DNA of 64,000 bases from Fidelibacterota bacterium. GTDB taxonomy: Bacteria; Marinisomatota; Marinisomatia; Marinisomatales; S15-B10. The translations under genes were made by a program, and so were the position numbers. This document shows, one piece after another, positions 17,748 to 64,000 of the stretch (position 1 is its first letter; each line of letters begins with the position of its first letter). Location: assembly GCA_002715465.1 (NCBI GenBank), contig PAYY01000013.1:71441-135440 (forward strand), in the 5' to 3' direction. The notes below the pieces were generated by a model. The model made no database searches, was not told the DNA's origin, and was given only the letters and a program-made list of their open reading frames with translations.

Positions 17748-17893
17748 ATTTACTTTACGAAATTAGCGTTTATACGAACTGCAAGTCAAGAACTCTACTA
17801 GTTCCAAAATAAACTTTTAAATATAAGAGTAAAGGGTTTAAACCCGTTCGTAAAAAAATTAAATACTCAGATAGGTTTCAGTATCTTAATATT
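17748..17893 (-). promoter_or_regulatory. Leader/promoter region of the yceD-rpmF-plsX-fab operon, with a 12-base palindrome
   Basis: This 146-base gap precedes yceD. It holds a perfect palindrome GGGTTTAAACCC at 17834-17845. Read on the minus strand there is also a TTGACT element, followed after 18 bases by TAATTT close to the start codon, a possible but weak promoter. If that promoter is used the leader would be very short. No match to a named fatty-acid operator (FapR, FabR, FadR) was recognised. Confidence 0.4.
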
Positions 17894-22392: not shown

Positions 22393-24030
22393 TTATTTAG
22401 TTAACTTTTCTTCCATGTAAGGATAACGATAATTTTTTGGAGGTGCAGAATTTTCTTTAATTGTTCGCTGGGATACCCACCTAATTAGGTTAAATATTGA
22501 ACCAGCTTTGTCATTTGTGCCAGATGCTCTTCCTCCTCCAAAAGGTTGTTGACCTACTACAGCGCCAGTAGGTTTGTCATTAATGTAAAAGTTTCCTGCT
22601 GAATGTCGCAATGCAATTTTAGCTTCTTCTATTGCTTTTTCATCTTTTGAAAATACACATCCCGTAAGAGCGTATGGTGACGTATTATCTATAAGTTTGA
22701 GTGTCTGTTCCCAATCAGCAGGTTCATATATATATATAGTTAATACCGGACCAAATATTTCTTCTTGCATAGTTTTGAAAAAGGGGTCTTTAGTTTTTAT
22801 TATTGTAGGTTCAATAAAATAGCCCACTGAATCATCACACTTTCCACCAACTAGTATTTCTGCATCAGATGAATTTTTTGCTAGATCTATATATCTTTTT
22901 ATTGAATTGAAAGCTGTCTGATCAATGACAGCGGTTATGAAATTATTGAAATCCTCAGGATCTCCCATTTTTAATGTAGAAACTTCTTTAATTAATCTAT
23001 TTTTTATTTTCTTCCATATATTAGATGGTATATACGCACGAGACATTGCTGAACATTTTTGACCTTGAAATTCGAATGCACCTCTGATCATTCCTGTTAT
23101 TAAAGATTCAATTTCAGCTGTTTCATGTGCAATGCAGAAATCTTTTCCTCCAGTTTCACCTACTAAACGAGGGTAACTCTTATATTTTGATATATTTTCT
23201 CCTATGGTTTCCCACATTTTTTGAAAAACAGATGTGGAGCCAGTAAAGTGGACTCCAGAAAGATCTGGGTGTTTCATAATAAATGGCCCTATTTGGGACC
23301 CATTTCCTGGGATAAAGTTGATTACACCATCTGGTAGGCCAGCTTCTTTAAAAAGTTGCATTAGAAACCAAGCTGGATATACAGCACTCGACGCTGGTTT
23401 CCAAATAACAACATTTCCCATTAAAGAAGGGGCTGTTGGCAGGTTAGCGGCTATACTGGTAAAATTAAAAGGGGTTACAGCAAAAATGAATCCTTCAAGT
23501 GAACGATATTCTATCGTGTTGTTAGTTGGTGGCGGTGAATATAATGGTTGATTCTTTTCTAATTCTTGAGCGAAAAATGTATTAAAATTAAAAAAATCTA
23601 CTGATTCACATGCTGCATCTATTTCAGCTTGGAAAACTGTTTTGCTCATATTTAAAATTGTTGAAGCATTCAAAATTTGTCGCCATTTCCCTGAAGTAAG
23701 TTCAGCCATTTTAATATATATTTTGGATCGTTCTTTGAGAGTTGTTTTTGACCAGAATTTCCAAGCTTTAGCAGCAGAGTCAATTGCGAGAATTAATTCT
23801 TTTTCTCCAGCTTTATGAAAACGACCTAAAATATGAGAATGTTTATGAGGGATTAGACAATTTCCTAAATTACCAGTCCTAACTTCTTTACCTCCAATAA
23901 TTAAAGGAATTTCGATTACTTGATTTTTTAGCTCATTAATTTGGGTAATCAGTTTTTTTCTTTCTGCTGATTCAGAATAATATGATCTTATAGGGTCATT
24001 TTTTGGAATTGGTATATTGTACTCACTCAT
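22393..24030 (-). CDS. pruA: L-glutamate gamma-semialdehyde dehydrogenase (P5C dehydrogenase)
   Basis: A 545-residue aldehyde dehydrogenase of the stand-alone, eukaryote/Bacteroidota-like P5CDH group. It oxidises glutamate semialdehyde, from proline, to glutamate with NAD+. The catalytic cysteine lies in FQGQKCSAMSRAYIP and the general-base glutamate in LVGETGGKDF. The cofactor loop is FTGSTSVF, and the FAVTPFNFTSIAANLP segment is typical of P5CDH. The C-terminal RASGTNDKAGS helps specificity. It leads the operon with sucCD and ndk, linking amino-acid oxidation to the TCA cycle. No proline dehydrogenase lies in the window. Confidence 0.92.
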   Translation of the reverse strand: MSEYNIPIPKNDPIRSYYSESAERKKLITQINELKNQVIEIPLIIGGKEVRTGNLGNCLIPHKHSHILGRFHKAGEKELILAIDSAAKAWKFWSKTTLKERSKIYIKMAELTSGKWRQILNASTILNMSKTVFQAEIDAACESVDFFNFNTFFAQELEKNQPLYSPPPTNNTIEYRSLEGFIFAVTPFNFTSIAANLPTAPSLMGNVVIWKPASSAVYPAWFLMQLFKEAGLPDGVINFIPGNGSQIGPFIMKHPDLSGVHFTGSTSVFQKMWETIGENISKYKSYPRLVGETGGKDFCIAHETAEIESLITGMIRGAFEFQGQKCSAMSRAYIPSNIWKKIKNRLIKEVSTLKMGDPEDFNNFITAVIDQTAFNSIKRYIDLAKNSSDAEILVGGKCDDSVGYFIEPTIIKTKDPFFKTMQEEIFGPVLTIYIYEPADWEQTLKLIDNTSPYALTGCVFSKDEKAIEEAKIALRHSAGNFYINDKPTGAVVGQQPFGGGRASGTNDKAGSIFNLIRWVSQRTIKENSAPPKNYRYPYMEEKLTK

Positions 24031-24120: not shown

Positions 24121-24891
24121 TCAGATTATTCCTATAGCCAATGCAATCGATAATAAAATAAGACCAATCCCAACAATTTTTTGAATTTCTTCCATTGTTA
24201 CAGTTTTTAAGAAATGTTTTCCCATAAATACTCCCAATAGAGCTGATATGCAGGAAGCTGTCATTAATGGAATATGCTCTTTTCCAATTGATGAAATATG
24301 TAAGCCATAAACTGTTATCCTGGCCATATCAACAAGACACGCTATTGTAACGCCGGTCCCAATAAAAGAATCCTTAGTAAGTCCAGCATTTGCTAGAAAA
24401 GCACTTCGCATTGCTCCTTGATGTCCTGATAATCCTCCTAAAAATCCGCTAACCAATCCACCTATAGGTAAAAAATTCTTTCCAAATTTTAAATTTTGTT
24501 TAACTGAGTATAGATCATAAATAGCAAAAATGAGAATTAGTAAAGAAATTATAAAGGTTAAAGGAAGTATTTTTTTTTCATAACCTAGTAATTCATAGTT
24601 TAAAATTGGTGGTAAATTTGCAAGTGTTACAAGGAGTTTCGCCCCAACGAAAGAAGCTAAAATAGCTGTGATACCAAACTTAATTAAAACATCCTTTTTA
24701 CAGCTTTTTCCAAAAATCATAAATTTAAAGATATTATTTAGGAAATGAACTATAGCCGTAGCTATTACTGCTTCTTGACTGGGAAGTATAATTAACATGG
24801 CTGGTAGCAATAATGTTCCTAATCCAAATCCAGAAAAAAGTGTAAGGAATGAAGCTATAATTGAGATAATGACAATGAAAAAAAAATCCAT
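24121..24891 (-). CDS. TauE/SafE-family permease
   Basis: A 256-residue membrane protein with about eight hydrophobic segments and two repeats typical of TauE/SafE (DUF81). The first has FSGFGLGTLLLPAM near residue 20 and the second has GGLVSGFLGGLSGHQGAMRSAFL near residue 145. Members are implicated in export of sulfite, sulfoacetate or other organosulfur anions, but many have unknown substrates. It starts two bases after the ArsC-like gene, so the two are almost certainly co-transcribed. That raises the possibility of a sulfur, selenium or arsenic oxyanion substrate. This link is inference. Confidence 0.82.
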   Translation of the reverse strand: MDFFFIVIISIIASFLTLFSGFGLGTLLLPAMLIILPSQEAVIATAIVHFLNNIFKFMIFGKSCKKDVLIKFGITAILASFVGAKLLVTLANLPPILNYELLGYEKKILPLTFIISLLILIFAIYDLYSVKQNLKFGKNFLPIGGLVSGFLGGLSGHQGAMRSAFLANAGLTKDSFIGTGVTIACLVDMARITVYGLHISSIGKEHIPLMTASCISALLGVFMGKHFLKTVTMEEIQKIVGIGLILLSIALAIGII

Positions 24892-24893
24892 AA

Positions 24894-25250
24894 TTAAATC
24901 AAAAGTTCCAAAACTTTTTCAGGAGGACGTCCTATAATTGCTTTATTGTCAACTACTACAATAGGTCTTTCAATAAGTTTTGGATACTTTGCCATTGCTT
25001 TTAATAAAACATTGTCATTCTCTAAATTATCTTTTAATGCTAATTCTTTAAAAATAGGCTCAGATCTTCGGATAAACTTTTTTGGTTTAAGGGACATTTT
25101 TTTACTTAAAGAAAGCAATTTTTTTTCATTAAGAGGATAATTTATATATTCAATTATATTTAGTTTAATTCCCTTGTTACTTAGAAGCAGCACGGCTTCT
25201 CTACTTTTACGTCAACGAGGATTATGGTAAATAGTAATATTTGTTTTCAT
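24894..25250 (-). CDS. ArsC/Spx-family thioredoxin-fold reductase with in-frame TGA (probable selenocysteine) at the catalytic position
   Basis: Reading starts at ATG 25250 and runs to 24894, 119 codons, the normal ArsC/YfgD length. The N-terminus gives ITIYHNPR, then TGA at 25214-25212, then RKSREAVLLL. Ordinary family members read HNPRCSKSRE here, so the TGA replaces exactly the catalytic cysteine of the CxxS motif (residue 13). The rest is intact and strongly family-like: FIRRSEPIFKELAL near residue 70 and KYPKLIERPIVVVDNKAIIGRPPEKVLE at the C-terminus. A hairpin with SECIS-like geometry follows the TGA. Selenocysteine insertion is the best explanation. A nonsense mutation or base error is the alternative. 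The family reduces arsenate or acts as a redox adaptor; the substrate here is unknown. Confidence 0.8.
25183..25200 (-). promoter_or_regulatory. Candidate bacterial SECIS hairpin
   Basis: On the minus strand, 11 bases after the TGA at 25214-25212, a perfect 6-bp stem (AGAAGC / GCTTCT) encloses the six-base loop CGTGCT. The loop lies 18-23 bases after the TGA and has G as its second base. Known bacterial SECIS elements lie immediately downstream of UGA, with an apical loop about 16-37 bases away and a conserved G among its first bases. The lower stem is weak, and a 6-bp stem could arise by chance. Confidence 0.6.
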
Positions 25251-31676: not shown

Positions 31677-32516
31677 ATGAAAATATATTTTTTAGCATCC
31701 GAGATTACACCCTTTTCACAAATATCATTTCTCGCAAATTTTTGTCGTATGGTTCCAATTAAACTGCAACAATATGACCATGATATTAGATTAACTTCTC
31801 CAAAATATGGTTATATTAGTGAGAGAAAATATACTCTTAGAGAAGTTATTCGCCTAAGAGAAATACCCTCAGAAATTGGAGGTAAAACAGAGATTGCCTC
31901 AGCAAAGTCAGCTTTTATACCTAAGACTAGAGTGCAAGTCTATTTTATGGAACATATTGATTGGTTTCAGCCTTTAACTACTCTCTTATATAAAGCAAAA
32001 AATGGAAGACCTCTACCAGATAACGATGACCGTTTTGCTTTTTATAGTAAAATTTCTTTAGAAATGCTTATTAATCTTTTCTGGTCGCCAGATGTGATAA
32101 TTTGTAATGATTGGCAATCATCTTATGTACCTTTATTGTATAAAGAATTATTTGCAAGTAAGGATTTTTATAAAGATATAAAGACTGTTCAATTGATTCA
32201 CTCTATAGATGATTATGCAAAAGTTTCTTTTGATTCTTATAAAAAAGTAGGTGTTAATCCTCCTAAAGAATTTAAGGATAAAGAACTTAATTCACTTGCC
32301 ATTGCATCAAAAACTGCTGATCTTGTTATTACAGTCGATAGTCCTAATTCAAAGCCATCAAAGGAAATTTTGACTAATTCAGATTTTAAACCTCATATTG
32401 GAGTAATAAAGAAAAAACTTGAAAAGGTAACTCTTAAAAGTGAAGATAATGATTCTTGTTATGATGTGGCTGATGATATCAATAAGGTGCTTCTCGATTA
32501 TTTTGGCTCATCTTGA
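31677..32516 (+). CDS. Short glycogen-synthase-like (GT5 N-domain only) protein
   Basis: The 279 residues cover only the N-terminal GT5 domain of glycogen synthase (IYFLASEITPF, VQVYFMEHIDWFQ, LPDNDDRFAFYSKISLEML, SPDVIICNDWQSSYVPLL). The C-terminal GT1 half, which completes the ADP-glucose site, is absent. The K-x-G-G-L loop that binds ADP-glucose in GlgA is replaced by Q-I-S-F-L. A short GT5-like family with the same ISERKYTLREVIRL-type segment is common in Bacteroidota, often annotated glycogen/starch synthase. Catalysis is doubtful and the real function is unknown. It is followed 30 bases later by a DUF4270-like lipoprotein gene, as I recall from Bacteroidota. Confidence 0.75.
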   Translation: MKIYFLASEITPFSQISFLANFCRMVPIKLQQYDHDIRLTSPKYGYISERKYTLREVIRLREIPSEIGGKTEIASAKSAFIPKTRVQVYFMEHIDWFQPLTTLLYKAKNGRPLPDNDDRFAFYSKISLEMLINLFWSPDVIICNDWQSSYVPLLYKELFASKDFYKDIKTVQLIHSIDDYAKVSFDSYKKVGVNPPKEFKDKELNSLAIASKTADLVITVDSPNSKPSKEILTNSDFKPHIGVIKKKLEKVTLKSEDNDSCYDVADDINKVLLDYFGSS

Positions 32517-40460: not shown

Positions 40461-40559
40461 AGCATTTTGAGAAATATGTATACTTCAGGTATATTCAAGG
40501 ATGAACCTATTAGTAAAATTGATGGAACAGATTGAGCAAAAGAAAGTAAAAGAGATATT

Positions 40560-41906
40560 TTGAACTCGTTTATTAATTTTTTAAAATCAAGAATTATCTA
40601 TATTAGTATAGTTTTCCTTTCAATATTTATTTCTCCAGCTATTGCTGGGAGTGAAGCAGGTGCACTATTTTTACTTATTTCTCCAGGTGCTAGGGCAGGA
40701 GGCATGGGTGAGGCGCAAGTAGCTGTTGCAAATGATGCTTATGCTAGTTATTGGAACCCAGCAGGGTTAGCTTTTCTTGAGGGGTCAGAAGCAGCTTTAA
40801 TGCATGTAAATTGGCTTCCAAACCTTGTATCTGATATGTATTATGAATTTATTGCTTTTCGACATCATGTCCCTACTTTTGGAACTCTTGGCGGACATAT
40901 AATATTTTTAAATCTAGGTGAACAGCAAAGAACGGATGAACAAGGTGAAAATCTTGGTACTTTCAGTAGTTTTATGTTCGCAGCTACTGGTTCATATGGT
41001 GCCTTTATTTCCCGTACAGCAGCGATAGGTTTAAATATTAAGATATTGCACCAAAAACTGGCGGAAATAGGTGCAGGTGCAGAAAAAGGAAAAGGAGTAA
41101 CAACTGATTTCGCTTTTGATATTGGCTATCTTCAAAAAGGTTTTTTATCCAATAGATTAGATATAGGAATGACTATTACTAATATAGGTCCTAAAATTGC
41201 ATTTATAGATGAAGCACAAGCAGATCCTATGCCAACAAATTTTACCTTAGGTTTGAACTTTAGAGTTATTGATTCAGAACATAATAAGTTTAATATAGTT
41301 ATGGATTTTGATAAAATGCTTGTTGCTTCTTACCCTGATATGGATTGGGATGAAGATGGACTTGTCGGAATGCATGACAAAAAAGGTAAGTATATAGGTC
41401 CTAGCGGTAGTTATAATTCTGAAGGGAATTTGGAAAAAGCGCACACAGATCCTATATATATTGGTATTTTTTCTTCATGGTTTGATGATTGGATTCTTGG
41501 TGGTGATATTGATCGTCCAGGTAAAAGCGGAGTCTCTGACGGAAAAATTGGAGGCTATACAAAAAATGAATCTGGTAAATTTGTACCAACAGAATCAGAA
41601 TGGGGAAATCCTAATTATGGAAAATATAATGATGCCGGACAACTTGAACTTGGAACAGGTAAGAACCGTTCTATACAAAATGAATTGGATGAACTTGTTT
41701 TAAATCTTGGTGCTGAATACTGGTATTCTCGTTATTTTGCTCTTCGATTAGGGTATTATTATGATAAAATGGGTAAAATTCAGAACCCTACTTTTGGTGT
41801 AGGATTAAGATTTGCTGGATATGGTTTTGATGCTGGCTTTACTCTTGGAGAACCAGGTCACCCATTAACCAATACAATGCGGTTTTCACTCAACATTGAA
41901 TTTTGA
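40560..41906 (+). CDS. PorV/PorQ-family outer-membrane protein
   Basis: A 448-residue barrel protein with signal peptide (cleavage near ISPAIAG). The conserved PorV opening is present: SPGARAGGMGEAQVAVANDAYASYWNPAG. The barrel continues to a C-terminal strand NTMRFSLNIEF. In Bacteroidota PorV accepts type IX secretion cargo at the outer membrane. Between strands, residues about 260-370 hold a long, probably extracellular insert with a calcium-loop-like DMDWDEDG segment. The start is TTG at 40560. The two downstream genes encode surface-type proteins, one with a sorting domain, so a secretion role is plausible. Confidence 0.85.
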   Translation: MNSFINFLKSRIIYISIVFLSIFISPAIAGSEAGALFLLISPGARAGGMGEAQVAVANDAYASYWNPAGLAFLEGSEAALMHVNWLPNLVSDMYYEFIAFRHHVPTFGTLGGHIIFLNLGEQQRTDEQGENLGTFSSFMFAATGSYGAFISRTAAIGLNIKILHQKLAEIGAGAEKGKGVTTDFAFDIGYLQKGFLSNRLDIGMTITNIGPKIAFIDEAQADPMPTNFTLGLNFRVIDSEHNKFNIVMDFDKMLVASYPDMDWDEDGLVGMHDKKGKYIGPSGSYNSEGNLEKAHTDPIYIGIFSSWFDDWILGGDIDRPGKSGVSDGKIGGYTKNESGKFVPTESEWGNPNYGKYNDAGQLELGTGKNRSIQNELDELVLNLGAEYWYSRYFALRLGYYYDKMGKIQNPTFGVGLRFAGYGFDAGFTLGEPGHPLTNTMRFSLNIEF

Positions 41907-41925
41907 TTTTATAGGAATTTAATTT

Positions 41926-41954
41926 GAGATTCTCCGCCTTATAAAGGCATTCTC
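41926..41954. promoter_or_regulatory. Hairpin between porV-like and M6-like genes
   Basis: GCCTT-ATA-AAGGC (41936-41948) forms a tight 5-bp stem, flanked by a second pair GAGA/TCTC (41926-41929 and 41951-41954) around an internal loop. It lies eight bases before the downstream ATG. It has no T-tract on either strand close enough for a standard terminator, so attenuation, mRNA stabilisation or masking of the ribosome site are possible. Confidence 0.35.
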
Positions 41955-41961
41955 TTAAATA

Positions 41962-44784
41962 ATGATCAGACGGTTTTTAATCGCTTTTCTTTTGATTCCT
42001 CAAATTCAGGGTCAGTTAGTTCTTGATAAAAAAGAAATTTCAATTCTTGGAATTCGAGCAAGTTTTTTAAATGATGATCTTATTTCTTCTACGGGAGATG
42101 GATCTTTTTTAATGGCGCCTGAAGAAGATCAATGTCTAGATCATCTTATTGACCCTCCTCCACATAACCGGTCTTATTTTGAGGCTCATTTTAAAGCAAT
42201 CGACAACTATTTTCGTTCTGTTTCAAAAGGAAGGTTTGGTATTGATTTAAAAAACTCTCTCATTTTACCTTTTGAAATGGATTCTAGTTATGAACTTACT
42301 GGAACTATTGGAAGTTATTATCCTTATAACGACTCTCTTTCTCAAGCTTTAGGCATGGCGGAGCTTTTTAAAGAATCTATTGAATTAGCACATTCTTTAG
42401 ATCAGCCTAAGTTTAATGATTTTGATGTCATTGTCATTTTTCATGCTGGAATAGGTCAAGATTTTGATTTACCATTCATTGATCCGACTCAAACGGATAT
42501 TCCATCCATGTATATAGACTCTGAATTTTTAATGGATCAAATAAATTTTCCAGGAGTTAAACTTTCTGACTCATTAATTGTTAGATCAGGAATTATTTTA
42601 CCTGAAACCCAAAATCATTTACTTTATTCTATTTCATCGGAAATTTTTGCCGGCGTTAGTAATCCATGTGATTATCAATTTGGTTTGACTGGAACCTTTG
42701 CTTTATTAATGGGGAGTGCCATTGGTTTGCCCTCTTTATGGAATACTGAAACAGGTGAAAGTGGGGCGGGTATTTTTGCTTTAATGGATCAAGGTTCAAA
42801 TAACGGTAGAGGAGTTATTCCATCACCTCCAAATCCATGGACTCGAATTTGGGCTGGTTGGGAGAAGAGTAAAGATTTTAGCTCTGGTGATACAGTAAAA
42901 TTAGAGTCACGTGATTTATCCATAGATCAGACAGCCAAAATAGTTATTTCATCAAATGAATATTTTCTTGTTGAAAATAGAAATAACTGGATAAGGCCTT
43001 CGGTTGATATTGATTCAATTAAATGGACTATTAATGGAAGCAGTTATATTGAAGCAATGTTTGATTCTAGCGGTCTTATAATAGATAACAATACCGGCGT
43101 TGTAATTGGTGCATCAAATTACGATCTTGGTCTCCCAGGTTCAGGAATGCTTATATGGCATATTGATGAAGATAGAATTTCAGAAGGTTTAATTAATCAA
43201 AATTTGAATTTTAATAAAAATATAAAAGCTATTGATATTGAAGAAGCTGATGGTGCCCAAGATATTGGGTATCCATCAGCTTTTTTGTTTACGAACCCTT
43301 CCTCTGGACTTTGGTCAGATATGTGGTTTCATGGAAATGAGCAATTTTTTATTGCAAATTCTGCTTTTGAAAATAGACAGATTTCTTTTGGTCCTGATAC
43401 CTATCCAAATTCTAATTCTAATGGTGGTGGAAAAACATTTATTGAGTTTAATAATTTTACTCCCGCTGGAAAAACAATGAGTTTTTATATCTCGAATTCA
43501 TTTGTGGCAAATGGATTTCCAAAACCTTCACTTAATATGGAATTCTTATTTGATTTTAATGCTGATAAATTTGATGAAATTATTGGATTTTCTGATTCAC
43601 TTTGGTGGTCTTCTTCTCAAAATTTTTCTCCATCAGAAATTTCCTCTCATATTGATGGAGAGTATCTTTTAGGAATTACTAATGCTGAACTTACACCCCA
43701 ACTTGTATTTATTGTAAATGAAGAGGATAAGATTAAAGTCACACTTTTTTCATTTAATACTGATAAAGAAAGTTTTCAGACAGTTTGGAGATCTGAATAT
43801 TTTGATTCTTTACCAACTCGAATAATTGGCTTTGCAAATGAATCAAAAATTGCTCTTGACTATCCAAGTAAAAAAGTATTTATTACTGCTGATTCTTTAT
43901 GGGAAGAAAAAGGATCGAATATAATTTCTGCTAATTGGCAACATGTGTCATCTGAGAATCTTTCTGGTTCTGTATCTCATTTTCGTGATGAAGGTTTATA
44001 TGTCTCAACTTTGCAAGGAGAATCCTTTTCTGGTTTTCAAGGTGTAAATTTTCAATCTCTCATTGCAGTTGAATTAGATGGAGACAATGGTATTGAAATC
44101 CTAGCTTCTGATGAAAAAGGAGTTTTATATGCTATGAATGAGAATTTGACTCTTCTTAGTGGTTTTCCAATAGATATCGGTGCAGAGGGACCTATCTTAG
44201 TTGGACAGCTTTATGATACACCAAGTCCTGAAATTGTAACAAAAACAAATTCTGGAGCTATTTACATCATAGACTCTGAAGGCTATATTAAATATAAACT
44301 TGCTAGTAGTAAAAATGATGAAGTAAAAATGATTTCTGTATACAATGGGAAGAATGCTTTATTAACATCATCATCATTATGGCTTTTTGAAGAAAATAAT
44401 GATCAGATTCAAGATTATTGGCCAACAGCACATGGTGATATTATGAATCGTCGTATTTTCCATAAATCTGATGATTTAACCATTCCAAATGAAAAGAATT
44501 TAATTTTATTTGCAAAAACATATAATTACCCTAATCCTGTTGAAAAAGGCATGACTACTTTTCGTGTTACAGTCGGCAATGTAAATAAGATCACAATCAA
44601 TATATATGATACAGCGGGTTTTTTCATTGATAGGCTCGATATACCGCAAGTTCAAATCAATGGAGTGAATGAACTAATTTGGGATGTTCGAGATCTAGAA
44701 AGTGGATTATATCTTGCTAATATAGAAGCTTCTTTTGAATCAAAAACTGAAAATAAAATTATAAAAATTGCAATAATAAATTAA
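41962..44784 (+). CDS. Degenerate M6 peptidase-like surface protein with C-terminal sorting domain
   Basis: A 940-residue secreted protein: signal peptide (1-17), an M6-peptidase-like region (about 25-500), a beta-propeller-like or Ig-like middle (about 500-850) and a C-terminal sorting domain (about 850-940) with NYPNPVEKGMTTFRV and the LIWDVRDLESGLYLANIEA end. The M6 fold is recognised from spacing and flanks (FDVIVIFHAG, IGLPSLWNTETGESGAGIFALMDQG, WTRIWAGWE, GMLIWHIDE). Active M6 enzymes have HExGH just before the GLP-x-L segment; here these positions are L248-L249-M-G-S252, so the zinc ligands and catalytic glutamate are gone. It is probably a binding or structural surface protein exported through the PorV-linked system. 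It is not an active peptidase of the usual type. Confidence 0.72.
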   Translation: MIRRFLIAFLLIPQIQGQLVLDKKEISILGIRASFLNDDLISSTGDGSFLMAPEEDQCLDHLIDPPPHNRSYFEAHFKAIDNYFRSVSKGRFGIDLKNSLILPFEMDSSYELTGTIGSYYPYNDSLSQALGMAELFKESIELAHSLDQPKFNDFDVIVIFHAGIGQDFDLPFIDPTQTDIPSMYIDSEFLMDQINFPGVKLSDSLIVRSGIILPETQNHLLYSISSEIFAGVSNPCDYQFGLTGTFALLMGSAIGLPSLWNTETGESGAGIFALMDQGSNNGRGVIPSPPNPWTRIWAGWEKSKDFSSGDTVKLESRDLSIDQTAKIVISSNEYFLVENRNNWIRPSVDIDSIKWTINGSSYIEAMFDSSGLIIDNNTGVVIGASNYDLGLPGSGMLIWHIDEDRISEGLINQNLNFNKNIKAIDIEEADGAQDIGYPSAFLFTNPSSGLWSDMWFHGNEQFFIANSAFENRQISFGPDTYPNSNSNGGGKTFIEFNNFTPAGKTMSFYISNSFVANGFPKPSLNMEFLFDFNADKFDEIIGFSDSLWWSSSQNFSPSEISSHIDGEYLLGITNAELTPQLVFIVNEEDKIKVTLFSFNTDKESFQTVWRSEYFDSLPTRIIGFANESKIALDYPSKKVFITADSLWEEKGSNIISANWQHVSSENLSGSVSHFRDEGLYVSTLQGESFSGFQGVNFQSLIAVELDGDNGIEILASDEKGVLYAMNENLTLLSGFPIDIGAEGPILVGQLYDTPSPEIVTKTNSGAIYIIDSEGYIKYKLASSKNDEVKMISVYNGKNALLTSSSLWLFEENNDQIQDYWPTAHGDIMNRRIFHKSDDLTIPNEKNLILFAKTYNYPNPVEKGMTTFRVTVGNVNKITINIYDTAGFFIDRLDIPQVQINGVNELIWDVRDLESGLYLANIEASFESKTENKIIKIAIIN

Positions 44785-58682: not shown

Positions 58683-59015
58683 ATGCCAACATATGATTAT
58701 AAATGTACAAAATGCGAGCATCGATTTGAAATGCTGCAAACAATGAATGAGCCTCCTCTTAAAAAGTGTCCTGAATGTGGATGTAAAGTTGAACGTTTAA
58801 TAGGAGCTGGTTCGGGATTGATATTTAAAGGCTCAGGGTTTTATATAACAGATTATGTTAAAGGAAAAGATGGTGGCCAAAAAAAATCAGAATCTCAGGG
58901 TAAAACAAACGGTAAGTCAAATGATAATTCAGTAAAAAAATCAGAGAAAAATACTAAATCAAAAAAAAATAATAGTAAGAGTCCATCAACTAAGAAATCG
59001 CAAAATAAGGATTAG
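58683..59015 (+). CDS. FmdB-family zinc-ribbon protein
   Basis: A 110-residue protein. Residues 1-45 form the FmdB/CxxC_CXXC_SSSS zinc ribbon (MPTYDYKCTKCEHRF ... KKCPECGCKVERL), then GSGLIFKGSGFYITDY, the usual family ending of the ordered part. The last 50 residues are a lysine-, serine- and asparagine-rich disordered tail. FmdB proteins are thought to be regulatory, but the molecular role is unsettled. It precedes icd by 11 bases. Confidence 0.88.
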   Translation: MPTYDYKCTKCEHRFEMLQTMNEPPLKKCPECGCKVERLIGAGSGLIFKGSGFYITDYVKGKDGGQKKSESQGKTNGKSNDNSVKKSEKNTKSKKNNSKSPSTKKSQNKD

Positions 59016-60262: not shown

Positions 60263-60295
60263 TCCTATTCTCCTTATTTCAATAGGAGCATTTTT
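60263..60295 (+). terminator. Candidate rho-independent terminator of icd
   Basis: TCCTATT (60263-60269) and AATAGGA (60281-60287) form a 7-bp stem with an 11-base loop, followed by GCA and a five-T run. The structure lies 16 bases after the icd stop and reaches into the last codons of the convergent gene. The stem is short, so efficiency is uncertain. Confidence 0.4.
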
Positions 60296-63200
60296 CTTGT
60301 TTGTTGAAATGTTCGGGATTGTAACCTATAAATATAGACTCCACTGCTAACAGAAATACCTCGTTGATCTTTTCCGTTCCAAATTAAACGATGTCTCCCA
60401 GTTGGAAGCCATTTATTGTTTAAGCTTCTTACTTCCTGTCCCATGAGGTTATAAACTTTGAGACTGATATAAGTTGGCTCAGGTACATCAAACTGTATGG
60501 TAGTGGTAGGATTAAATGGGTTCGGATAATTTTGGTGTAGTGCAAAATTGTCCGGTAAAAGAGAGAGTATCTCTTCCGTTTTTGCAATGACATATTCAGG
60601 ATTTCCAGCAATAATTTTTAAAGGATAAACAGAAAGTTTATCCCAGGATTGGTGGAAGGTGAGAGAGGAAGTTTCACTAAGATCATGTATTTGTCTGGTT
60701 AATAGATCAAGAAGGATAATATCATGTTCAATAGGGAATATACCTTCCATTACAATAGACAATGATACAGCCCCAGTTTCTTCTTTTACTCTCAGTTCAA
60801 TATCCCAGACGCCATTTTCTTCATTGAGAGATCTTATATCTGAGGAAAATTGTGAGATATTATCTTTCCATCCTTCTCTGGGCATAGCAAGAGAGACATA
60901 TCCTCCAAGATAGGGAGGTTCAGGATTATCCCTGAAATCATATTGTTCTAAAGAACCTGCTATTCTGCCAATACTGTTGTTTGGATCCACATAAGTTTCA
61001 CCAGACGCTCTTATCTTTAATTCCCAACCATCAAGTTCAGGTTCTATTTCACGAGATAAAGGTGTGGAGATTGCCACTGGTTTCAATAAAACTGTTTCTA
61101 TGGAATCACTTTTATTAAAAACTGCATATCCCCCCCACGGTCGAAGTTCAGTTTCATCAGACCAGCCTTCCAGGCTCCACCCATAGGTCATGGGCCCAGA
61201 GAAAAGACTATCGTTCAGCTCAAATTCGGTAGTAAATGGGTAAGGATTTCCGATCATATTCCAGCCCGGATCAAAATTGAAAGTAAAACCAGATTGATCG
61301 GGCGAAGTTCCCATACCAGTTTTAAAAACGGTGGGAGCATTTACATTGTGAATGAACCAGTATCCCATCCCTTCTACAAAATCCTCAGGTTCAATAAAAG
61401 AAGAACCATCCCAATGTTTTATAACCCAGGTATCAATCTTTTTTTGACCAAGGACAGGCTCAAGTATTGTTTCTACATTTTCTTCTTCTAGAGCTGCGGG
61501 AATTGATATCATCCTCCATTTGTTTCTAGGTAAGCTATCTTCAAGAACGCTACCTTCAATATTAGTGGAAAGATCACCTTCATCAAATTTTACATTTACT
61601 GAAAAAATATCGGATTTTGATTCGTTTCCTAAAGAATCATTAGCCAAGACATAATAGCTGATCCCCTTGTAGGTTATAGCTATAGATGGAATGGTAACTT
61701 GGTATTCTTCATCTTCAAATTGAGCCATAATGAGTTGATCAAATTTTGTTTCTCCTCCTAATGCAAAGTAAGCGAGAGCTTTCTCAACAGCATTATTATC
61801 TGTGATGGAAAACTTTACAGTGAAAGGGTTTCCAGAAACGATCAAATCAGGAGAGGAAAAAAGTTTAACTGTAGGGCCATAAACATCCCTTGCCATATTT
61901 GTAGCGGTTAAATCTGGAATATCCAGTCCGTTATAGTTAGGGTCGGAGGAGAGGGTAGAGTCCAGGATGATGGAATAGGATATATTGGGGTCATTGATAG
62001 AGTCTTCAATTCCTGTAATGGTAACAATTTGGGGCGTTGACCACAATTCAGGGGGGAAAATAAGTGAATCAAGAGACAGGAATGCTTCCGTGGAATCTGA
62101 GGTTGACAACTTCACTTTGACGGTGTCAAAAGGAGGGGACTGAAGTACGACGGTGAATGTGTCCGACTCACCATACTCTGATGTTATAATCTCATCTTCT
62201 TTATTAATAAAAATACCTTCTTCTATATCCGTTAGTTGAATAAAGATTTTTTGGGCGGGAGAGGTGTCAAAATCATCTGACACATTTACAGAGATGGTAT
62301 AGACGGGAGTTTCTTCGAAGTTTAATATGGCATTGGTAGAAAGTATTCCGGTGGTATCATTAAGAATGAAGTGTTCAGTACTGTCACCATCAATGATAGT
62401 CCAATCTTTCAGAAGACTATTATCCGTGTCAACATCAAAGGCTGTTAAAGTATCCAGTTGGGTCCCAACAGGAATATTTTCAGCAATATTAAATGATAGA
62501 GAATCAACCGCAGGAGCATCATTTACTGACAACACATCAATAATGACAGTTCCTTCCGAACTAATGGATTCTCCAGCATAAGCTCGAAAGCTAAAGTTTC
62601 CATATCCCTGTCCGTAGCCGTTTAGCTCAGGCAAATAAATAACTTTCCCGCTATCATTTGTAACGGTTGTTGGAGTAAGTATGGTATCTCCTACTGCAGA
62701 AGTATCGGATGTCTGAAAAAGCCAACCTTTTATTGGAATTGATGAAATGCCATAGGTCAAGTTCCTTCCTTCAGTATCGGTAGCTGAAAGAGTGATGGGC
62801 TGATAGGAATCTTCATTGGCCGTTAGATTTTGAGAGACTACGGCAATATTGTTATCCACCTCTACAATATTTACTGTTACCGTTGCTTCTGTTGATTCCA
62901 GCGTTCCGTCAGATACTACATAACCAAAATTTCCGTGATCTTCGCCACCTTCATTTTCTTCGGAGATATAAAGAACCCTTCCTAGAGCATCTGTGATGTT
63001 GGTCTCTTCTGTTGTGATAGTATTTCCCCTGCTTGAATCTGTATTAGTTTGGAAAAGGGAGCCATTTGCTGGTAAGGTGGTAATCATGAATGAAATGGGG
63101 TCCCCATCAACATCTGAGCCTCTAAGTGTGATTATTTCTTCTAAATTTTCGTCACCACTAATGGTTAGAGGTTCAGCTTTGGGTCGATCGTTAACCGCTT

Positions 63201-64000
63201 CTACATTTAAGTTGATTATGGCCTCTTCGCTTTCAGCATTTCCATCATCTATTTTAAATCCAAAGTTTCCATAACCAGTACCGTTACCGTCCTTTTCTGA
63301 GATGTAAATCACCCTGTGGTTTGTGTCTGTTATATTGGTTGGGACAGTTAGTATGCTGTCTCCCGTGGACTGACCATCGGGTGTTTGAAAGAGTGTTCCT
63401 TTAGCAGGAAGGGTAGAGATTATAAAGGTCAGTGAATCATTTTCCACGTCACTTCCCAAAAGAATAATTAATTCATATTCATCTTCAACAGCACTTTCAA
63501 CCTGTGCCTTGGCAATAGGTGGATCATTCACCGCCGCCACATTAACAGATACAATGGCCTCAGAGCTGATTACACTGCCGGAAAAAGACCTGAACCCAAA
63601 GTTGCCGTAGTTATCCCCGTATTCGTTAATGAATGAGGAAAAAATTACCTGAGCGCTGTCACTAGTTACGTTGGTTGGCGCGGATAGAATAGAATCACCC
63701 CGGATTTTTCCATCAGTGGTCTGGAATAAATATCCATTTAAGGGAAGGGTTGAGATTTTGTATGAAAGGGGTCTTCCTTCAACATCGGAGGCTTTCAGTG
63801 TGATGGTTTTGTCCATATCTTCGGCGGCACTTATAGTCTGGGCTGTGGGAGAAATATCGTCACTTACAGAGACAACATTTACCACAACAATTGCTTCTTC
63901 TGAATTAGACTCACCATCATTGGTTTTAAACCCGAAGTTTCCGTGGCCTTGGCCGTTTCCATCTACGGCGGACCTGTAAATAACCCGATTTTTTGAATCA
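60274..64000 (-). CDS. Giant repeat-rich surface protein with cadherin-like domain and C-terminal sorting domain (N-terminus outside window)
   Basis: The minus-strand frame stays open past 64000, so over 1240 residues are visible and the start is missing. The in-frame GTG at 63885 is internal. Numbering from it: four complete tandem Ig-like repeats of about 112 residues (about 17-460), a cadherin-type domain (about 461-556, with FNIAEN, AFDVDTDN, ILNFEETPVYTISVNVSDD), a Calx-beta-like stretch (about 556-660), further beta domains, and a C-terminal sorting domain (about 1115-1203) with HQNYPNPFNPTTTIQF and a SGVYIYRLQS end, as in type IX or FlgD-like cargo. It is probably secreted and cell-surface attached, perhaps calcium dependent. 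Base composition is much richer in G+C than the neighbours. Confidence 0.85.
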   Translation of the reverse strand, partial: DSKNRVIYRSAVDGNGQGHGNFGFKTNDGESNSEEAIVVVNVVSVSDDISPTAQTISAAEDMDKTITLKASDVEGRPLSYKISTLPLNGYLFQTTDGKIRGDSILSAPTNVTSDSAQVIFSSFINEYGDNYGNFGFRSFSGSVISSEAIVSVNVAAVNDPPIAKAQVESAVEDEYELIILLGSDVENDSLTFIISTLPAKGTLFQTPDGQSTGDSILTVPTNITDTNHRVIYISEKDGNGTGYGNFGFKIDDGNAESEEAIINLNVEAVNDRPKAEPLTISGDENLEEIITLRGSDVDGDPISFMITTLPANGSLFQTNTDSSRGNTITTEETNITDALGRVLYISEENEGGEDHGNFGYVVSDGTLESTEATVTVNIVEVDNNIAVVSQNLTANEDSYQPITLSATDTEGRNLTYGISSIPIKGWLFQTSDTSAVGDTILTPTTVTNDSGKVIYLPELNGYGQGYGNFSFRAYAGESISSEGTVIIDVLSVNDAPAVDSLSFNIAENIPVGTQLDTLTAFDVDTDNSLLKDWTIIDGDSTEHFILNDTTGILSTNAILNFEETPVYTISVNVSDDFDTSPAQKIFIQLTDIEEGIFINKEDEIITSEYGESDTFTVVLQSPPFDTVKVKLSTSDSTEAFLSLDSLIFPPELWSTPQIVTITGIEDSINDPNISYSIILDSTLSSDPNYNGLDIPDLTATNMARDVYGPTVKLFSSPDLIVSGNPFTVKFSITDNNAVEKALAYFALGGETKFDQLIMAQFEDEEYQVTIPSIAITYKGISYYVLANDSLGNESKSDIFSVNVKFDEGDLSTNIEGSVLEDSLPRNKWRMISIPAALEEENVETILEPVLGQKKIDTWVIKHWDGSSFIEPEDFVEGMGYWFIHNVNAPTVFKTGMGTSPDQSGFTFNFDPGWNMIGNPYPFTTEFELNDSLFSGPMTYGWSLEGWSDETELRPWGGYAVFNKSDSIETVLLKPVAISTPLSREIEPELDGWELKIRASGETYVDPNNSIGRIAGSLEQYDFRDNPEPPYLGGYVSLAMPREGWKDNISQFSSDIRSLNEENGVWDIELRVKEETGAVSLSIVMEGIFPIEHDIILLDLLTRQIHDLSETSSLTFHQSWDKLSVYPLKIIAGNPEYVIAKTEEILSLLPDNFALHQNYPNPFNPTTTIQFDVPEPTYISLKVYNLMGQEVRSLNNKWLPTGRHRLIWNGKDQRGISVSSGVYIYRLQSRTFQQTRKMLLLK
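62506..64000 (-). repeat. Tandem coding repeats, about 336-base period
   Basis: Five copies (four complete and one cut by the window end) of an Ig/cadherin-like unit. The conserved G-N-F asparagine recurs at residues -17, 95, 207, 319 and 430 relative to the GTG at 63885, a spacing of 112, 112, 112 and 111 residues. Each unit repeats E-D/E-N, S-D-V-x-G/N, S-T-L-P-x-x-G-x-L-F-Q-T, G-D-S/T-I, V-I-Y and Y-G-N-F-G-F. The copies have diverged, so they are not recent duplications. Confidence 0.85.

Follow-up and report, generated by a model that had tools for sequence, protein, structure and literature searches.

The window, a 64-kb stretch of contig PAYY01000013.1 from the assembly of a Fidelibacterota bacterium, carries on its minus strand a gene for a homologue of the arsenate reductase ArsC in which a TGA, the predicted codon for selenocysteine (Sec, U), stands where the catalytic cysteine is expected (Table 1). 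The reading frame runs from ATG 25250 to TAA 24894 with the TGA at 25214-25212 as its sole interruption, and holds 118 residues when position 13 is included, which together with the stop gives 119 codons. In alignments the TGA coincides with the Cys of ArsC homologues and the motif reads HNPR-U-RKS, i.e. UxxS (U-R-K-S). The original prediction, made from the letters of the DNA, had placed the TGA exactly at the catalytic Cys of an otherwise intact frame of 119 codons, and this was borne out by the sequence. It had also foreseen that an ordinary gene caller would shorten the product to 99 residues, and translation table 11 indeed yields only an open reading frame (ORF) of that length, starting at GTG 25193. 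The same shortened form is present in the protein searches as P0001, which differs from the window in one residue and represents a cluster of seven members on six contigs from three sources.

Table 1. Features of the arsC-like locus (positions in the window).
Feature	Position	Strand	Remarks
arsC-like gene, predicted selenoprotein of the UxxS type	24894..25250	minus	118 residues including U13, then TAA
In-frame TGA at the catalytic Cys position, predicted Sec codon (U13)	25212..25214	minus	sequence, alignments, column-masked tree
99-residue ORF given instead by table-11 gene calling	24894..25193	minus	start GTG 25193
Hairpin resembling a bacterial Sec insertion sequence (bSECIS-like)	25183..25200	minus	stem AGAAGC/GCUUCU, 6 bp; loop CGUGCU, 6 nucleotides
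TauE/SafE family permease gene	24121..24891	minus	starts 2 nucleotides after the arsC stop
L-glutamate gamma-semialdehyde (P5C) dehydrogenase gene	22393..24030	minus	TIGR01236; used to place the contig

For the assignment to a family, scores were computed with Cys placed at the TGA. The product passed the curated equivalog cut-off of the NCBIfam model TIGR00014 (arsC; 117.1 bits against 106.05) and scored well above that of PF03960 (58 bits against 24), whereas it stayed below the curated cut-offs for Spx (30 bits against 123) and for other ArsC-like proteins (NF008107/PRK10853, 12.8 bits against 121, and another model of the Spx/ArsC-like set, 44.1 bits against 75.05). The earlier description as 'ArsC/YfgD-like' thus stands where ArsC is concerned and differs in one detail, as the product scores as TIGR00014 and not as Spx or as NF008107/PRK10853, a model that may represent YfgD-like proteins. 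The predicted structure of the Cys form matched solved ArsC structures (Foldseek) and has the ArsC fold; a second, fold-based look was a re-ranking of Foldseek's own matches only. In an alignment of 56 sequences R95 and R108 were invariant and R61 was at least 90% conserved; we take these to correspond to R60, R94 and R107 of E. coli ArsC, whose numbering and role we assume here. The gene product is therefore regarded as a homologue of the glutaredoxin-type arsenate reductases, with arsenate as the presumed substrate.

Two protein searches were compared, the first with Cys and the second with tryptophan (W) at the catalytic position of the query. They scored 7998 and 7067 candidates, respectively, and the best 120 of each comprised 139 distinct proteins, of which 138 (all except P0001) cover the catalytic site. 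Among these 138 listed homologues, 109 have C and 29 have W at the position, and the three nearest relatives among the matches listed (75, 75 and 74% identity) all have W. Because Trp makes no catalytic sense there, we infer that W represents a TGA that was called under genetic code 4. Two of the proteins, P0002 and P0004, extend beyond the usual end with MWAWIFFSL and MWVWIIFSL, respectively; such extensions fit terminal TGA codons that were read through and therefore argue for the same origin of the W. Across the W rows of the alignment, codons 1 to 12 and the motif HNPR/KSR are conserved.

A tree of the 139 proteins, built from 116 columns with the catalytic column masked, grouped the window with its three nearest relatives (support 100/96) and, one step further out, with P0121 (100/87), and all five members of this supported group belong to the W-only class. 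The next W-only group (n=18) had weak support (86/19). The label W or C required three changes on the tree, two of them forced by supported branches, compared with a mean of 27.6 for shuffled labels. If W stands for TGA, the stop would have outlasted about 25% of protein divergence with the frame kept on both sides, which argues that the gene is not dead.

The latter bears directly on the possibility that the TGA is a nonsense mutation or a sequencing error in the catalytic codon of an ordinary Cys-containing ArsC, so that the gene would be either a young pseudogene or an artefact of the assembly. A single substitution turns TGT or TGC into TGA, and Cys homologues make up the majority of those listed. 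We nevertheless consider this explanation improbable, since W is found at the same position in relatives of 74-75% identity and in all five rows of the supported group, and since the P0001 cluster occurs on several contigs from different sources, some of them possibly from the window's own population. It also fits poorly with the remainder of the window. A scan for TGA codons preceded by at least 5 and followed by at least 25 open codons returned 84 continuations; 78 were discarded as their downstream part overlaps another ORF by at least 30%, and the TGA at 25212 was the sole one of the six remaining that was found to lie inside a conserved domain, with no other broken gene seen among them. 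This agrees with the original argument that a chance nonsense codon at just this place is unlikely.

Two of the five other continuations, 32514 and 40533, were considered as further selenoprotein candidates and rejected. The TGA at 32514 is the junction of two different genes, those at 40533 and 57537 lie a short way upstream of where a PorV-family gene and the RsmD gene start, respectively, and those at 17878 and 40468 have short continuations with poor coding scores. At the 32514 junction, the 279-residue ORF at 31677-32516 matches only the N-terminal part of the glycogen/starch synthase GlgA, under the cut-offs of the models; the protein that follows in frame past the TGA is a distinct one, weakly similar to DNRLRE.

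We also found that TGA terminates 16 of the 58 non-overlapping ORFs of at least 90 residues in the window, as expected from the earlier statement that TGA is an ordinary stop elsewhere in this DNA, and a wholesale reassignment of the genetic code can therefore be dismissed. The same count argues against decoding of the UGA as Cys by a special tRNA. A tRNA-Cys with a UCA anticodon is known from the recoding literature, and would likewise supply a working nucleophile at the position, so that the enzyme would be an ordinary Cys-type ArsC made by an unusual route. With so many ORFs ending in TGA, however, a tRNA free to read UGA would need to be restricted to certain contexts, and for the UxxS family a reading as Sec has been published; we regard decoding as Cys as very improbable. 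Least credible of all is that the UGA acts as a plain stop and that the 99-residue protein is made from GTG 25193, as table-11 calling suggests and as in P0001, since a downstream restart would not maintain the conserved N-terminal codons and HNPR/KSR motif of the W rows and its product would, according to the structural model, lack strand 1, the loop of the active site and the beginning of helix 1.

A hairpin follows the TGA, with its stem starting at +12 from the UGA and a loop G at +19. Six stretches between 36 and 51 nucleotides long had it as their minimum-energy fold (-6.9 kcal/mol), and in a 67-nucleotide fold the minimum-energy structure retained it while the centroid did not. The spacing limits for a Sec insertion sequence (SECIS) that we applied are those we presume to hold in bacteria. 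Bacterial SECIS elements are described as lying a short way 3' of the UGA and as having a guanosine in a small apical loop (PMC1088965). The hairpin is compatible with such an element; alone it argues weakly for one, its agreement being moderately better than chance.

Taken together, decoding of UGA codon 13 of this ArsC homologue as Sec is the best explanation and in our judgement a highly probable one, because the stop falls on the one functionally special residue and is apparently kept (as W) in relatives about 25% diverged, and because the stop is followed by a suitably shaped hairpin and UxxS arsenate reductases have been published as a family of marine selenoproteins. The selenoprotein originally proposed is thus supported by the placement of the TGA, the W-only group, the hairpin and the published family. 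In the mechanism that we propose, UGA 13 would be read by the normal bacterial route, with SelB, Sec-tRNA and the hairpin as SECIS element a short way into the coding sequence. Nucleophilic attack on arsenate would then fall to the selenolate in place of the Cys thiolate, with the conserved arginines 61, 95 and 108 holding the substrate, and glutaredoxin or glutathione would regenerate the enzyme.

Several observations weigh against decoding as Sec. The identification of W with TGA was made from proteins and not from codons in DNA, and the number of W is inflated by the second query, which itself carried W (with the Cys query alone W was found in 13 of the 119 listed, and in 16 of the 19 proteins that the W query added). 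The tree rests on few columns and its bootstrap was not quite settled. A Cys version is present in the same phylum (P0005, Neomarinimicrobiota, 61% identity, outside the W group), and the contigs of P0001 may partly stem from the window's own population and hence not be independent. As for the hairpin, the stability of the 67-nucleotide fold was no better than that of shuffled sequences (z -0.43), and by the same rule an equally good hairpin follows 70 of the 2707 TGA triplets that the window contains and arises in 329 of 5000 synonymous recodings. The window has 66 ORFs of 90 or more residues, and among the NCBIfam matches listed for the 48 of them that were scanned (with varied cut-offs), together with the read-through arsC, there was no sel family; no tRNA was found in the window, nor an Rfam match. 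Finally, a 2016 survey lists SelD of three SAR406 genomes as orphan (PMC5029168), which we take to mean that no known selenium trait accompanied it. Incomplete genomes may account for this, and the entry is evidence of a selenium gene in the phylum but falls short of a complete Sec pathway. Among the papers listed by literature searches on selenium and Sec in the phylum there was no selenoproteome study of SAR406/Marinimicrobia.

Searches of other DNA added little to this picture. A scan of genome contigs for exact peptide patterns gave 147 stretches with one confirmed relative, a Cys-type ArsC of a Bacteriovoracia genome (TGT, 49% identity); it returned no Marinimicrobia locus, which is not evidence of absence. 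In viral contigs, three matches of 31% identity among 10 stretches were set aside as chance, one of them after inspection. In two overlapping sets of control genomes, from the phylum of the Bacteriovoracia genome and not relatives of the window, ArsC matches were present in 73 of 143 (E 0.001) and 100 of 368 (1e-15) genomes, and none of the listed ArsC rows in either set had an internal stop. A tblastn search of plasmids gave 3029 records, all below 60% identity; three of the five listed are annotated as arsC and two are unannotated.

The genes next to arsC suggest a context for its product. By their spacing, arsC and the gene of the TauE/SafE family permease are likely co-transcribed, and the permease, whose function may be linked to that of the reductase, suggests transport of a small anion beside it. 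A further reading, which we put forward as speculative and rather unlikely, is that the Sec-containing ArsC is a long-kept trait of one lineage of the Marinimicrobia and forms a two-gene unit with a permease exporting its product, perhaps with a substrate other than arsenate, such as an oxyanion of sulfur or selenium. Next on the same strand lies the dehydrogenase, followed by two genes that had been named sucC and sucD. Only four of the 120 dehydrogenase relatives listed have an organism name (P0147, P0232, P0235 and P0249, 69-70% identity), and all four are Candidatus Marinimicrobia/Neomarinimicrobiota, which bears out the SAR406 origin that had been proposed for this DNA.

Elsewhere in the window, the region 40560-44784 encodes a PorV/PorQ-family protein (261 bits, cut-off 90) followed by a protein with a partial match to the type IX secretion M6-like metalloprotease model (415 bits, cut-off 600), which hints at type IX secretion in the lineage. 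The 1203-residue ORF at 60274-63885, with tandem-95 repeat similarity (65.5 bits, cut-off 90), is perhaps a large surface protein. At 58683-59015 an FmdB-family zinc-ribbon protein is encoded in the four-Cys form; UxxU selenoprotein versions of this family appear on a published list (PMC13188914).

Compared with the ArsC of E. coli (PDB 1i9d and 1jzw) and V. cholerae (3f0i), the product of the window gene shares the fold, the arginines and the active-site loop, and differs from the E. coli enzyme in the predicted Sec at the equivalent of Cys12. The arsenate reductase-like UxxC selenoprotein (NF041106; Arsenate reductase 2, cd03032) is described as ArsC-like as well, but has UxxC instead of UxxS, and NF041106 was absent among the eight NCBIfam families listed for our gene product. 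The closest counterpart is the UxxS arsenate reductase, which was introduced in 2005 as a new family of selenoproteins in data from the Sargasso Sea (14 sequences, COG1393; PMC1088965), was counted 77 times in the Global Ocean Sampling data in 2008 (ArsC 1, pfam03960, UxxS; PMC2398784) and appears in recent inventories (under TIGR00014 in PMC13188914 and under COG1393 in PMC9312934). As far as these sources describe it, this family is alike in the TIGR00014 assignment, the UxxS motif, the downstream SECIS-like hairpin and the wide occurrence of Cys homologues, a likeness drawn from the published descriptions. The window gene agrees with the family in each sequence feature checked. The family was first published in 2005. 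The finding alone does not alter current knowledge of Sec or arsenic biology. It adds the phylum, the adjoining permease and the W that some gene calls seem to leave where Sec belongs. Such a gene can thus be misannotated in two ways, by being cut to 99 residues, as in P0001, or by receiving what is probably a false tryptophan at the active site, and protein catalogues built from metagenomes may more generally betray hidden selenoprotein genes by a W where a catalytic Cys is expected. Whereas the published UxxS family was predicted from shotgun ocean data, its putative member described here is placed on a long stretch of DNA that is tied to the Marinimicrobia, an uncultivated marine phylum, and has a TauE/SafE gene as its neighbour.
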